Positions 4,263-55,115 of a DNA stretch of 64,000 nucleotides are shown piece after piece; the stretch's first letter is position 1; each line of letters begins with the position of its first letter. Under the pieces are notes generated by a model. That model was not told where the DNA came from, did not search any database, and was given only the letters and a program-made list of their open reading frames with translations. The translations under genes were made by a program, and so were the position numbers. The stretch is from Pseudoselenomonas ruminantium (GTDB taxonomy: Bacteria > Bacillota > Negativicutes > Selenomonadales > Selenomonadaceae), in NCBI RefSeq assembly GCF_900142515.1, contig NZ_FRBC01000010.1, forward strand, positions 1-64,000, written 5' to 3'.

Positions 4263-4595
4263 ATATATTTGCATCAGACAAACGGGAAGTCCTATACATT
4301 CCACTAAATCAGTTGAGCCTTCTGAAATAGTTGCTGGAATGCATCGATTTGACTATATTATAAAGACAATCAAAGATACGCACAAGCTCCCCTGGGGGAT
4401 AAAATTTATTTTCCATACATCTCAACAAAATTTAATTTAAATTTAATTGTACAATAATCTAGTTTTAATTTCATCAACCAAAGCCATGATAGATGTTTAT
4501 TTTATAAATCAATTTCTAATAATTTGCTCATAATTTATTCAATGATTATAATGGTAAATGGAATAGTTCATCAATATCTTTGGGGAGGAATTTTC
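4263..4595 (+). promoter_or_regulatory. AT-rich upstream region with 11-bp phased TTTAAT boxes
   Basis: No gene is seen. TTTAAT occurs at 4431-4436, 4442-4447 and 4464-4469, i.e. spaced 11 and 22 bp, on the same helix face. CCCCTGGGGG lies 40 nt further up (4389-4398). Helically phased direct repeats are typical of OmpR/PhoB-family response-regulator sites (inference). The fragment at 4311-4322 also resembles the arm of the palindrome at 6227-6304. The promoter of the gene at 4596 should lie here. Confidence 0.4.
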
Positions 4596-4877
4596 ATGGA
4601 AACAGTAAACACAGCACAGCAACCGATACAGGTAGTCGTGGCAAAGTCGGAAAAAAGCATCGGCCTCGCCGTGGTCTTGACCGCTATCTTTGGACCGCTG
4701 GGGCTCTTTTATTCGTCCATTATTGGCGGTTTTGTGATGTTGGCCGTGTCCTTTGTAGTGGGCTTGATCACTTTAGGTTTTGGCCTTATCGTGACCTGGC
4801 CAACCTGCATCTTCTGGGCGTATATGGCTACCAAACGCTATAATGCAAAACTCGCCGCAGACTCCGTGGCCATGTAA
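4596..4877 (+). CDS. Small two-span membrane protein of unknown function
   Basis: A 93-residue protein starting at the ATG at 4596 (GGGGAGGA upstream). The N-terminal ~25 residues are polar. Then come two hydrophobic segments with the run GLAVVLTAIFGPLGLFYSS and later VTWPTCIFWAYMATKRYNAKL. This architecture is common among conserved short bacterial membrane proteins, but no function is known to me. It is transcribed alone, between phased upstream repeats and a terminator. Confidence 0.65.
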   Translation: METVNTAQQPIQVVVAKSEKSIGLAVVLTAIFGPLGLFYSSIIGGFVMLAVSFVVGLITLGFGLIVTWPTCIFWAYMATKRYNAKLAADSVAM

Positions 4878-53412: not shown

Positions 53413-53721
53413 ATGGCAACAACCGTTATTACCAAAGATAATTTCCAAAGCGAAGTACTGGATCAGCCCGGCACGGTACTCATTGACTTCTGGGCAGAAT
53501 GGTGTGGCCCCTGCCGGATGCTCTCCCCCATCATTGACGAAGTGGCAGCAGGAAATCCTGCCGTAAAAGTCGGCAAGGTCAATGTGGATGAACAGCAGGA
53601 ACTGGCCGCCCAGTTCGGCATCATGAGCATCCCCACCCTGCTCGTGTTCAAAAACGGCCAGAAAGTCAACGAATCCTTAGGACTTATTCCCAAGGAACAG
53701 GTAGAAAAACTTATCGGCTAA
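53413..53721 (+). CDS. trxA: Thioredoxin
   Basis: 102 residues from the ATG at 53413 (AGGAGGAA upstream). FWAEWCGPCRMLSPIIDEVA holds the CGPC redox site (Cys 32 and 35 approx.) and MSIPTLLVFKNGQ the cis-Pro loop. General disulfide reductase of the cytoplasm. Has a TATAAT at 53369-53374 upstream but no clear -35. Confidence 0.94.
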   Translation: MATTVITKDNFQSEVLDQPGTVLIDFWAEWCGPCRMLSPIIDEVAAGNPAVKVGKVNVDEQQELAAQFGIMSIPTLLVFKNGQKVNESLGLIPKEQVEKLIG

Positions 53722-53750: not shown

Positions 53751-53790
53751 AAAAATCCCGCTGACATCCAATGCCAGCGGGATTTTTTAT
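53751..53790 (+). terminator. Terminator after trxA
   Basis: Stem AAAAATCCCGCTG / CAGCGGGATTTTT with an 11-nt loop. T run follows. Confidence 0.85.
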
Positions 53791-53810
53791 AAATTACAGT
53801 TTGTTGGATA

Positions 53811-54070
53811 GTTCGTGCCAAAGATACCTCGTTCATACGCCGTCAGGGGTTCACGGGGGAGTGCTTTTTCTGTTTCCGCTAAACGACCCTCCCTGCAAGG
53901 TTAGAGCTACTTAGTTAGATGCGCCGGGCAGGCCAGCGGCGCGTCTTTCAGCGTGCTCTTTAGCTGCTGCTTGTGTCGGGCCGGTCTTCGCCATCGCTCA
54001 GACAGTCGCTCCCACAGAAAAAGCACTCCCCCGTTCGCCCCAAGGCACGATTTTTGTCATTGGCACGAAC
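53811..54070. repeat. Structured element copy E1 (core 53855-54032) with outer 11-bp stem
   Basis: A 178-nt unit closed by a perfect 19-bp inverted repeat: GGGGGAGTGCTTTTTCTGT (53855-53873) / its complement (54014-54032). Outside, GGGG/CCCC, GCC/GGC and GTTCGTGCCAA (53811-53821) / TTGGCACGAAC (54060-54070) extend the pairing. Inside: CGACCC (53884-53889)/GGGCCG (53978-53983), AGAGC (53903-53907)/GCTCT (53955-53959), hairpin GCGCCG/CGGCGC (53921-53942), and GTCT/AGAC (53984-54003). No coding frame fits. By comparison with E2 the natural reading direction is probably minus. Confidence 0.7.
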
Positions 54071-54151
54071 CGTTTCTCCCGTAACAAGCACATCGATGTG
54101 TTTGCAGCTTTCAGCCGGAACATAGCAGTATACACCAACGTAACTTTGGGT

Positions 54152-54339
54152 GGAGGTGGGGATGCTTTTTCGCCGACGGAACGACTGTCCGAACGAAGTG
54201 AGGACTGGCCCGCAAACAGCATGTACTGGAAGCTTCGTTGATAGACGCGCCGCCGGCCTGCCCGGCGCAGGTTACTGGAAGTTGCGTACTTTTGCTGGCG
54301 GGTCATTTAGTGGAGCGGCGAAAAAGTATTCCCACCTCC
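54152..54339. repeat. Structured element copy E2, opposite orientation to E1
   Basis: A 188-nt unit closed by a 24-bp inverted repeat (54152-54175 / 54316-54339) with two G-U-type differences. Inside, in the same order as E1 read on the other strand: GTCC/GGAC hairpin (54187-54205), TGGCCC (54206-54211)/GGGTCA (54300-54305), CAGCA and GTAC (54217-54226) pairing with GTAC and TGCTG (54286-54297), and the core hairpin GCGCCG/CGGCGC (54247-54268). It has the same architecture as E1 with different helix sequences. The stretch 54071-54151 and 54340-54409 shows no further gene. Confidence 0.7.
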
Positions 54340-54409
54340 GCCCCGATGTTTTGTGACAAATTGTGTTCAGGCGCGCACCAACAAACCGCAACTTGTATGT
54401 GCATGCCTT

Positions 54410-55087
54410 TTATTTTCCGGCCAATTGCTTCATCGCATCCCTATCGATGATTTTGATGCAGCCCCGGGAGTTCTTTATCAGGCCTTCCTGATTGAAATAC
54501 TTCACCAGGCGGCTGACCACTTCCCTGGCCGTGCCCATAAAGCGGGCAATCTGCTCATGGGTCAGATGGATTTCCGCTGAACCATTTTTCTCGCTTTCTT
54601 CCAATAAGAAGATGGCGAGCCTGCGGTCAGCTGAGAAGAACAATACCTGCTGCATCTTCCAGAGCATATCGGACAAACGGCGGGTGGCCATCTGATAGCC
54701 GTAACAACGCACCTGAATATTACCATCGGATAATTTGCGGAAGGCCGGTGATTTGATCAGCAAAGCTTCCGTATCTTCCTCGGCATCTACATAAACCTCA
54801 AAGGTCAGCGAATCCAACACACAAGGTGCAGACAAGATACCCACATCATCGGCAAAAAGCCGGTAAAGCGTGACCTCCCGTCCATCCTCAGACATGGTAT
54901 AGACACGCAGCTGACCTTTTTTCAGCAGATGCACACCAATGCAATCCAAAGCTCCCTGATGGACATGGGTCCCCTTGGGATAATGTACGATTTTGGAACC
55001 GGCAGTCAATATCTCTTTTTCCGTCGCCGACAAATGCGGCCAAAAATCAAAGTGACGGATAAATAAATCCATAAATTCTGAAGACAA
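54410..55087 (-). CDS. Crp/Fnr-family transcriptional regulator
   Basis: About 225 residues. An N-terminal cyclic-nucleotide-binding-like beta barrel (GSKIVHYPKGTHVHQGALDC, HLLKKGQLRVYTMSEDGREV, LFADDVGILSAPCVLDSLTF) and a C-terminal winged helix (EIHLTHEQIARFMGTAREVV, SRLVKYFNQEGLI). No Cys cluster of the FNR oxygen-sensor type is seen, so the ligand is unknown. I prefer the TTG at 55087 (GGGGGAGGGG 7 nt upstream); ATGs at 55108 and 55072 are alternatives. Just downstream of prs, after a terminator. Confidence 0.85.
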   Translation of the reverse strand: MSSEFMDLFIRHFDFWPHLSATEKEILTAGSKIVHYPKGTHVHQGALDCIGVHLLKKGQLRVYTMSEDGREVTLYRLFADDVGILSAPCVLDSLTFEVYVDAEEDTEALLIKSPAFRKLSDGNIQVRCYGYQMATRRLSDMLWKMQQVLFFSADRRLAIFLLEESEKNGSAEIHLTHEQIARFMGTAREVVSRLVKYFNQEGLIKNSRGCIKIIDRDAMKQLAGK

Positions 55088-55115
55088 AACAATCCCCTCC
55101 CCCATCATTCAGGTA

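Follow-up and report, generated by a model that had tools for sequence, protein, structure and literature searches.

A dispersed non-coding twin-hairpin repeat, often beside intrinsic terminators, in the genus of Pseudoselenomonas ruminantium

RESULTS AND DISCUSSION

One element between trxA and a Crp-family gene

The window analysed here (64,000 nucleotides, positions 1 to 64,000 of contig NZ_FRBC01000010.1 from Pseudoselenomonas ruminantium, assembly GCF_900142515.1, referred to below as genome G000) contains a 688-nt gap between two convergent genes, one for thioredoxin (trxA, 53413-53721, plus strand) and one for a Crp-family regulator (54410-55108, minus strand). An earlier reading, made from the sequence alone, had noticed two inverted copies of a covarying structured element in this gap, E1 and E2, and had proposed that they were either a pair of divergent structured RNAs or a new palindromic mobile element. 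What, then, occupies the gap, and does it occur elsewhere? The neighbouring genes were as that sequence-only reading had named them, with matches to PF00085 (102.9 bits) and PF13545 (62 bits). Its claim that the gap holds no credible gene also stood, as neither the two small open reading frames of the gap nor three typed peptides matched Pfam, and no conserved reading frame was found among them. A protein-coding remnant split by the hairpins was rejected on the same absence of Pfam matches and on the centre, which differs by indels between copies.

Beyond what had been recognized before, E1 and E2 are the two halves of a single non-coding element of ~604 bp that is repeated genome-wide (Table 1). 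It consists, in order, of a terminal repeat (AAATTGCAGTTTGT), hairpin E1, a centre of ~109 bp, hairpin E2 and the inverted terminal repeat. Alignment of 13 full copies from the same genome with their flanks gave a unit size of ~600 bp (599-609 with the boundaries as set), bounded by the inverted repeat AAATTGCAGTTTGT...ACAAACTGCAATTT, and apart from terminator-like hairpins no common sequence was seen beyond the unit ends in these copies. Across 99 distinct composites, 177 of 198 ends carried the terminal repeat with 11 or more of its 14 positions matched, compared to 64 of 2000 random windows, and hairpin spacing was 106-111 nt in 95. All 76 composites typed at both hairpins had one E1 and one E2, a typing that rests on one core column and left 23 of the 99 untyped at one or both hairpins.

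Table 1. Features of the twin-hairpin element and its left flank, in window positions
Feature	Positions	Strand	Basis
Whole twin-hairpin element, 604 bp	53791-54394		Alignment of 13 full-length and 5 shorter or gapped own-genome copies; terminal-repeat survey, 99 composites
Left terminal repeat AAATTACAGTTTGT (nearly palindromic consensus AAATTGCAGTTTGT)	53791-53804	+	Copy alignment; terminal-repeat survey
Right terminal repeat, on the minus strand AAGTTGCGGTTTGT	54381-54394	-	Inverted-repeat scan; alignment; survey
Hairpin E1, sense strand minus (centre to outside)	53846-54041	-	Fold; covariation
Hairpin E2, sense strand plus (centre to outside)	54147-54344	+	Fold; covariation
Centre between the hairpins, with conserved block CTCCCGTNACAAGNACATCGATGT	54042-54146		Alignment of centres; hairpin spacing
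Near-palindrome CAAGCACATCGATGTGTTTG in the centre	54085-54104		Inverted repeat; centre alignment
Outer arm pairing with 54057-54070, extending the E1 fold (GTTCGTG/CACGAAC)	53811-53824	+	Consensus fold of 70 E1 halves
Centre partner of the E1 outer helix	54057-54070	+	Inverted repeat; consensus fold of 70 E1 halves
Intrinsic terminator of trxA, with a T-run leading into the left terminal repeat	53751-53787	+	Inverted repeat; locus comparison

Copies in the genome and the genus

Searched against its own genome, E1 returned 85 match pieces, comprising 27 E1-type places below E 1e-20 and a remainder in which many pieces were stem-to-stem or E2 matches; E2 returned 46 matches at E up to 1e-5. By DNA search, this dispersed repeat was present in 15 of the 22 genomes of the genus. 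In G005, 75 model matches resolved into 34 outward pairs and 7 unpaired hairpins; standard spacing was kept in 30 of the pairs, the rest being among weaker relatives, and ~34 pairs of ~0.6 kb amount to a measurable share of the intergenic DNA of that genome. The 50 model matches of G002 made up 22 pairs and three loci matching both strands. The one of these three that we read, the trxA locus (L143), was a one-hairpin derivative, formed by a join between the similar arms of E1 and E2, and scored on both strands. Two shorter copies in the window's own genome, at C27:122327 (L017) and C19:83178 (L040), had likewise kept one hairpin, with the join at the similar arms.

Many contigs of the window's assembly begin or end within the element (e.g., C10, C11, C18, C35 and C39, and further C46, C49, C50, C52 and C58), and the true copy number in this genome is therefore uncertain. 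The element probably contributes to broken assemblies of rumen Selenomonas.

A pattern taken from the centre was found in named genomes, in at least 120 stretches. All 80 matches listed came from Selenomonas, for the most part from S. ruminantium (ATCC 12561 and rumen MAGs among them). Plasmid matches were confined to two records: pSR1, whose best matching place covered 47% of the query, and a Streptomyces plasmid, matched over 23 bases. The pSR1 record (NC_002139.1, L021) holds part of the element at 4406-4692 and 1-154, and its right flank is identical to the chromosomal flank of a copy in the window's genome (L005); judging by this shared flank, the record may contain chromosomal DNA. On these two records, we rejected a plasmid as carrier. 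A viral or phage carrier was rejected too, since two patterns had no matches in viral contigs and none in phages.

Covarying folds with a preferred strand

Both structures had been placed and oriented correctly in the sequence-only reading, and both folded far better than shuffled sequences: E1 (minus strand) at -96.7 kcal/mol (z -5.55) and E2 (plus strand) at -104.9 kcal/mol (z -7.04), with 0 of 200 shuffles as good in either case. They could be aligned over their whole length with an identical order of parts, as had been claimed, and are paralogous hairpins pointing outward. Their closing stems do differ in sequence; the perfect stretch in E1, previously given as 19 bp, measured 21 bp (53853-53873 with 54014-54034). 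The inner hairpin (GTCT/AGAC in E1, GTCC/GGAC in E2) and the long-range helix (CGGCCC/GGGTCG and TGGCCC/GGGTCA) were present, and the same columns covaried in a set of 40 sequences made up of the E1 and E2 of 20 chosen elements from 10 genomes. A further helix (AGAGC/GCTCT in E1, CAGCA..GTAC/GTAC..TGCTG in E2) was found in the two window copies and, being missing from the 40-sequence consensus fold, was rejected as a general feature.

The suggestion that the fold itself is selected was upheld by 190 distinct hairpins from 15 genomes and by pair counts on the 40-sequence set. The sense consensus fold of the 190 hairpins (restricted to columns that half or more of the rows fill) reached -137 kcal/mol, and its pair cells were Watson-Crick in 8716 cases, G-U in 784 and A-C in 169; with all columns of that alignment, the values were -126.9 for sense versus -111.5 for antisense. 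In the 40-sequence set the consensus fold was -113.7 for sense versus -93.7 for antisense, the sense strand was more stable in 37 sequences, and there were 110 G-U cells versus 26 A-C cells. Covariation is biased to the strand running from the centre to the outside, which carries the fold better.

Pairing was kept in 94.9% of the 1939 cells of the 40-sequence set, and 21 of 49 pairs had changes on both sides. Such both-side changes filled 216 cells. Shuffled alignments gave 77.6, none of 500 reaching the observed number, and slid controls never gave more than 24; further pair types did not exceed their level in shuffles (243/500). Some 79 of those 216 come from four near-even splits (15-191, 35-172, 42-59 and 61-165), which appear to separate E1 from E2 and might each go back to a single ancient change. 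Column pairs 44-57, 47-54, 10-196 and 67-159 varied beyond that split. Examples among the covarying columns are 42-59 (UA in 21, CG in 19), 44-57 (UA in 26, CG in 14) and 61-165 (CG in 20, UA in 20), and two wobbles were near-fixed, 63-163 (GU in 35 of 40) and 17-189 (GU in 36 of 40). E1 halves add an outer helix from centre to arm, of which E2 halves have a 4-bp counterpart only.

Covariation with a strand preference is what would be looked for in a structured RNA, and each copy might specify two divergent noncoding RNAs used by the cell, perhaps as guides or decoys. The strand bias fits the pair of divergent RNAs suggested earlier, as do the near-fixed G-U wobbles and the extension of the E1 fold into centre and arm. 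Against this, G-T wobbles occur in folded DNA too, and the dozens of copies, changes of orientation (see below) and deletion derivatives look like a repeat and not like a gene. A sigma-70-like promoter was looked for in the window copy and not found, which is weak evidence because only 0.4 would be expected by chance. Overall, we consider functional RNAs of this kind unlikely.

Positions next to intrinsic terminators

Copies of the element are intergenic and often start a few nucleotides downstream of an intrinsic terminator, to which they may turn either end. A stem resembling an intrinsic terminator stood at one end of 55 of 95 elements, 2-12 nt (mostly 5-8) before the terminal repeat, so that 55 of 173 ends adjoined one compared to 133 of 3218 control positions; the facing end was E1 in 25 cases, E2 in 28 and untyped in 2. 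Terminator-like structures reading away from the element within 60 nt were seen at 48 of 173 ends (a count without control). Among 63 loci, 22 were in convergent, 34 in tandem and 7 in divergent gaps; like the terminator counts, these are not independent, because orthologous loci were counted in several genomes. Background gaps (at least 40 nt, two 400-kb regions, simple ORF calling) were convergent in 38 and divergent in 43 of 196 in G014, and in 33 and 38 of 188 in G005. For 82 elements, no target duplication of 2-9 bp was clearly above shuffled pairs, the best excess being 0.171 versus 0.085 for 2 bp. The many copies that stand right behind a terminator are unlikely to be reached by read-through, a further point against functional RNAs.

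Enrichment in convergent gaps and avoidance of divergent ones would also suit an element of chromosome architecture, in which a large cruciform binds a DNA-bending or supercoil-relaxing protein between convergent genes. Gyrase, which has been reported at the BIMEs of Escherichia coli, provides a precedent, and conservation of sites between species (see below) points the same way. Targeting of terminators alone, however, would yield the same convergent bias; more than half of the copies are in tandem gaps, and a double-stranded binding site needs no strand-specific conservation of wobbles. We therefore hold an architectural role to be improbable.

Orthologous sites and changed orientation

The sites of the element are common to species, and its orientation at them is often different. 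The trxA-crp locus could be read across in five genomes, three bearing the element and two empty: the window's genome and G006 have it, in opposite orientations, G002 has the one-hairpin derivative, oriented as in G006, and G005 and G014 are without it. Aligned blocks of G014 and G005 are mostly 94-97% identical; all sites found in the compared regions were occupied in both genomes, and with no single-genome sites there, no recent transposition is visible in these regions.

Inverted two-sided pairs made up 3 of 9 between G014 and G005 and 4 of 6 between the window's genome and G002. We chose 31 two-sided ortholog pairs from a longer list that also holds one-sided and duplicate pairs; 15 were inverted and 16 the same way round, a comparison between species with one genome for each. 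In the inverted pairs, both hairpins matched better crossed (74-96% versus 61-69%), and so did both arms, sometimes by 1-4 points only. The straight match was better in the same-way pairs, and in each pair the arms and hairpins moved together. At one G014/G005 locus, the change of orientation fell inside the terminal repeat, with both flanks collinear.

How alike the copies are within and between genomes bears on how such changes arise. In three pairs from G002, mean identity among copies of that genome was 93-96% versus 84-86% to the orthologue in the window's genome. Some same-way orthologues of G014 and G005 were mutually closest (up to 96.4%), and others were not (ranks 21 of 22 and 3 of 10). 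Of the three inverted pairs between these two genomes, one was close (rank 2 of 22 and 1 of 10), and the others had ranks of 19 of 22 and 7 of 10, and of 14 of 22 and 2 of 10. On these identities, homogenization of copies appears plain in G002 only, and the picture for G014/G005, where a copy's nearest relative is often its orthologue, is mixed. With the possible exception of the locus of the close inverted pair, inversion in place can therefore not be told apart from a sister copy having replaced or converted the original.

These observations bring in a further possibility, that the element is an invertible DNA module which a host recombinase flips as a whole at the near-palindromic terminal repeats. 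The inverted pairs, arms included, are what such flipping would leave, the G014/G005 locus with its change inside the terminal repeat and its close orthologue would be the best example, and serine recombinases (PF00239) occur in 21 of the 22 genomes. That last count does not discriminate, however, and the other inverted pairs, as well as some same-way pairs, are not mutually closest, which fits replacement or conversion equally well. The inversions seen are those between species. We regard a dedicated invertible module as rather unlikely.

Candidate enzymes and a guest insertion sequence

None of the three enzyme families searched for (PF01797, PF00078 and PF00239) tracked the distribution of the element. 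The Y1 transposase family PF01797 was present in 11 of the 22 genomes and was not found in seven carriers (G002, G005, G008, G013, G014, G015 and G017), and a RAYT/Y1 transposase was rejected as partner because several element-rich genomes are among these. Reverse transcriptase (PF00078) matches were present in G000, G005, G006, G009, G014 and G015 and not found in G001, G002, G004, G008, G017 and others; a reverse transcriptase or group II intron was rejected as partner on the same grounds. Serine recombinases, being so nearly ubiquitous, were uninformative as a marker of the element.

An IS1182-family insertion sequence was found in G002 (NF033551, 354.8 bits; L099 1294-3005, and likewise in L100 and L101). 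Its place is the base of an E1 or E2 hairpin, and 9-bp duplications accompany it; these were recognized by eye in two of the three loci and by match overlap in the third. Its copies in L099 and L100 are 100% identical over 1712 bp. In this genome, 5 of the 22 pairs are spread to ~2.0 kb, a spacing which suggests that they are split by this IS. In the three loci read, the transposase belonged to the IS at a hairpin base and was not framed by the element's own ends; the identity of the copies, their position at hairpin bases and the 9-bp duplications led us to reject the IS as the element's own transposase. The sequence-only reading had counted a match to an IS end among possible refutations; the only part played by an IS is that of a latecomer, which inserted into the repeat in a genome other than the window's. 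A scan of the window's own genome with the terminal repeat AAATTGCAGTTTGT returned the known copies and a few scattered one-mismatch matches, and no parental IS with the element's ends was seen there.

Comparison with known systems

The earlier statement that no named family fits holds for Rfam 15 and the literature searched. At gathering scores, tRNAs were the only Rfam matches, both in the window and in 18 loci bearing relatives, and all matches in a low-threshold scan of the gap were below the gathering score. We found no description of this repeat and no fitting described family, and the names searched had 0 occurrences in PMC11109978 and PMC3733652.

The nearest parallel is with REPIN/BIME elements, which are described as REP doublets mobilized by RAYT, with hairpins expected in single-stranded DNA or RNA (PMC3116915). 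Like them, the element has two inverted, related yet distinct hairpins per unit and is extragenic with many copies (PMC3116915). Unlike REPs, for which 20-40 bp is given (PMC3733652), its hairpins are ~195 nt long with an internal multi-helix fold; it also has outer terminal inverted repeats, and Y1/RAYT genes were not found in the carriers named above. MITEs are similarly short, non-coding, dispersed and intergenic with terminal inverted repeats (PMC10969869), features which the element shares. In contrast to MITEs, it showed no target-site duplication in the 82 elements and has a covarying, strand-biased fold.

Two mobile elements offer more limited comparisons. The IStron SrISt1 of Selenomonas ruminantium subsp. 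lactilytica (2583 bp, four copies, with a group I intron and IS607-type ORFs) is a structured mobile element from the same species, whose anatomy, as outlined in PMC4227781, is unrelated to that of the twin-hairpin element. ISPpu9 and other IS elements target extragenic palindromes, ISPpu9 entering REPs (PMC8450116), much as the IS1182-family IS entered the base of the hairpins in G002; that IS, unlike the repeat itself, is a guest with 9-bp duplications.

Group IIC introns prefer the 3' side of intrinsic terminators and are structured and strand-specific, and in both respects the element resembles them. It differs in having no Rfam intron match, in its terminal inverted repeats, and in taking either orientation relative to the terminator, and no reverse transcriptase was found in several element-rich genomes.

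We favour, with slightly better than even confidence, a non-autonomous, terminator-homing twin-hairpin repeat that is recognized as a folded single strand by a putative enzyme acting in trans. The two hairpins would be read as folded single strands, in DNA at the replication fork or in RNA, by an enzyme supplied from elsewhere; the element would enter beside another folded hairpin, the terminator, without harm to genes; and later, at the same site, it would be turned round or swapped for a sister copy by way of its short, nearly palindromic ends. The logic would be like that of a very large REPIN/BIME, yet by the tests run the element is not one. The mobile element proposed in the sequence-only reading is in keeping with the dispersal, the terminal inverted repeats and the presence or absence of the unit at trxA-crp; against mobility, the searches for a transposition enzyme found no partner, and the 82 elements showed no target duplication. 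That sites are conserved and the anatomy is intact could also be due to a function in the host. All told, that reading's interpretation is partly supported.

A bolder version, which we put forward as speculation and think unlikely, is that the hairpins are invertible throughout the genus: a putative host or selfish recombinase would read the strand-specific folds and palindromic ends, home the unit to the 3' side of terminators, and keep turning and exchanging copies in place, so that transcription or replication would meet, at each site, the structured strand of either E1 or E2. If right, the reading of the element as a terminator-homing repeat would add a class of RNA-like, multi-helix, covarying hairpins of ~195 nt to the interspersed palindromes of bacteria, a class combining terminator homing with orientation changes at fixed sites. 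It would also make testable which enzyme moves or flips a gene-less repeat, and whether the 3' side of terminators is a general safe harbour for folded elements.

Relatives beyond the genus

The sequence-only reading had asked for a covariance model, and homologues with covariation do exist in other genomes. Using a model built from 70 hairpins, we found relatives in 27 of 151 genomes, in 6 of 30 genera of the family, at E up to 0.01; a search of the class at E up to 0.001 found them in 24 of 380 genomes and 4 of 102 genera, all 24 in the window's family (in both searches matches per genome were capped, and the filters lose weak ones). Distant relatives are hairpins of ~150 nt, single or paired, with another closing stem and related core sequences. 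Their persistence in other genera is a point that would favour functional RNAs.

In G020 (L392-L411), a diverged unit was present at high copy, with 27 model matches and no DNA-level match to the window's element. Its two-hairpin layout matches that of the window's element in a strongly altered sequence; its ends read AAATTCCAGTTTATC, and its centre contains TCGATGCATCGATG. The same genome has six reverse transcriptase genes with identical score and a 470-aa open frame (on C1, C3, C4 (two), C8 and C12), which probably represent a recently spread retroelement. Three hairpin relatives in the same orientation, ~224 nt apart, resembled a small tandem array at G031:C5:573136-573732, and in G059 hairpin relatives were close neighbours at C2:184340 and 184519 and at C7:79976 and 80165.
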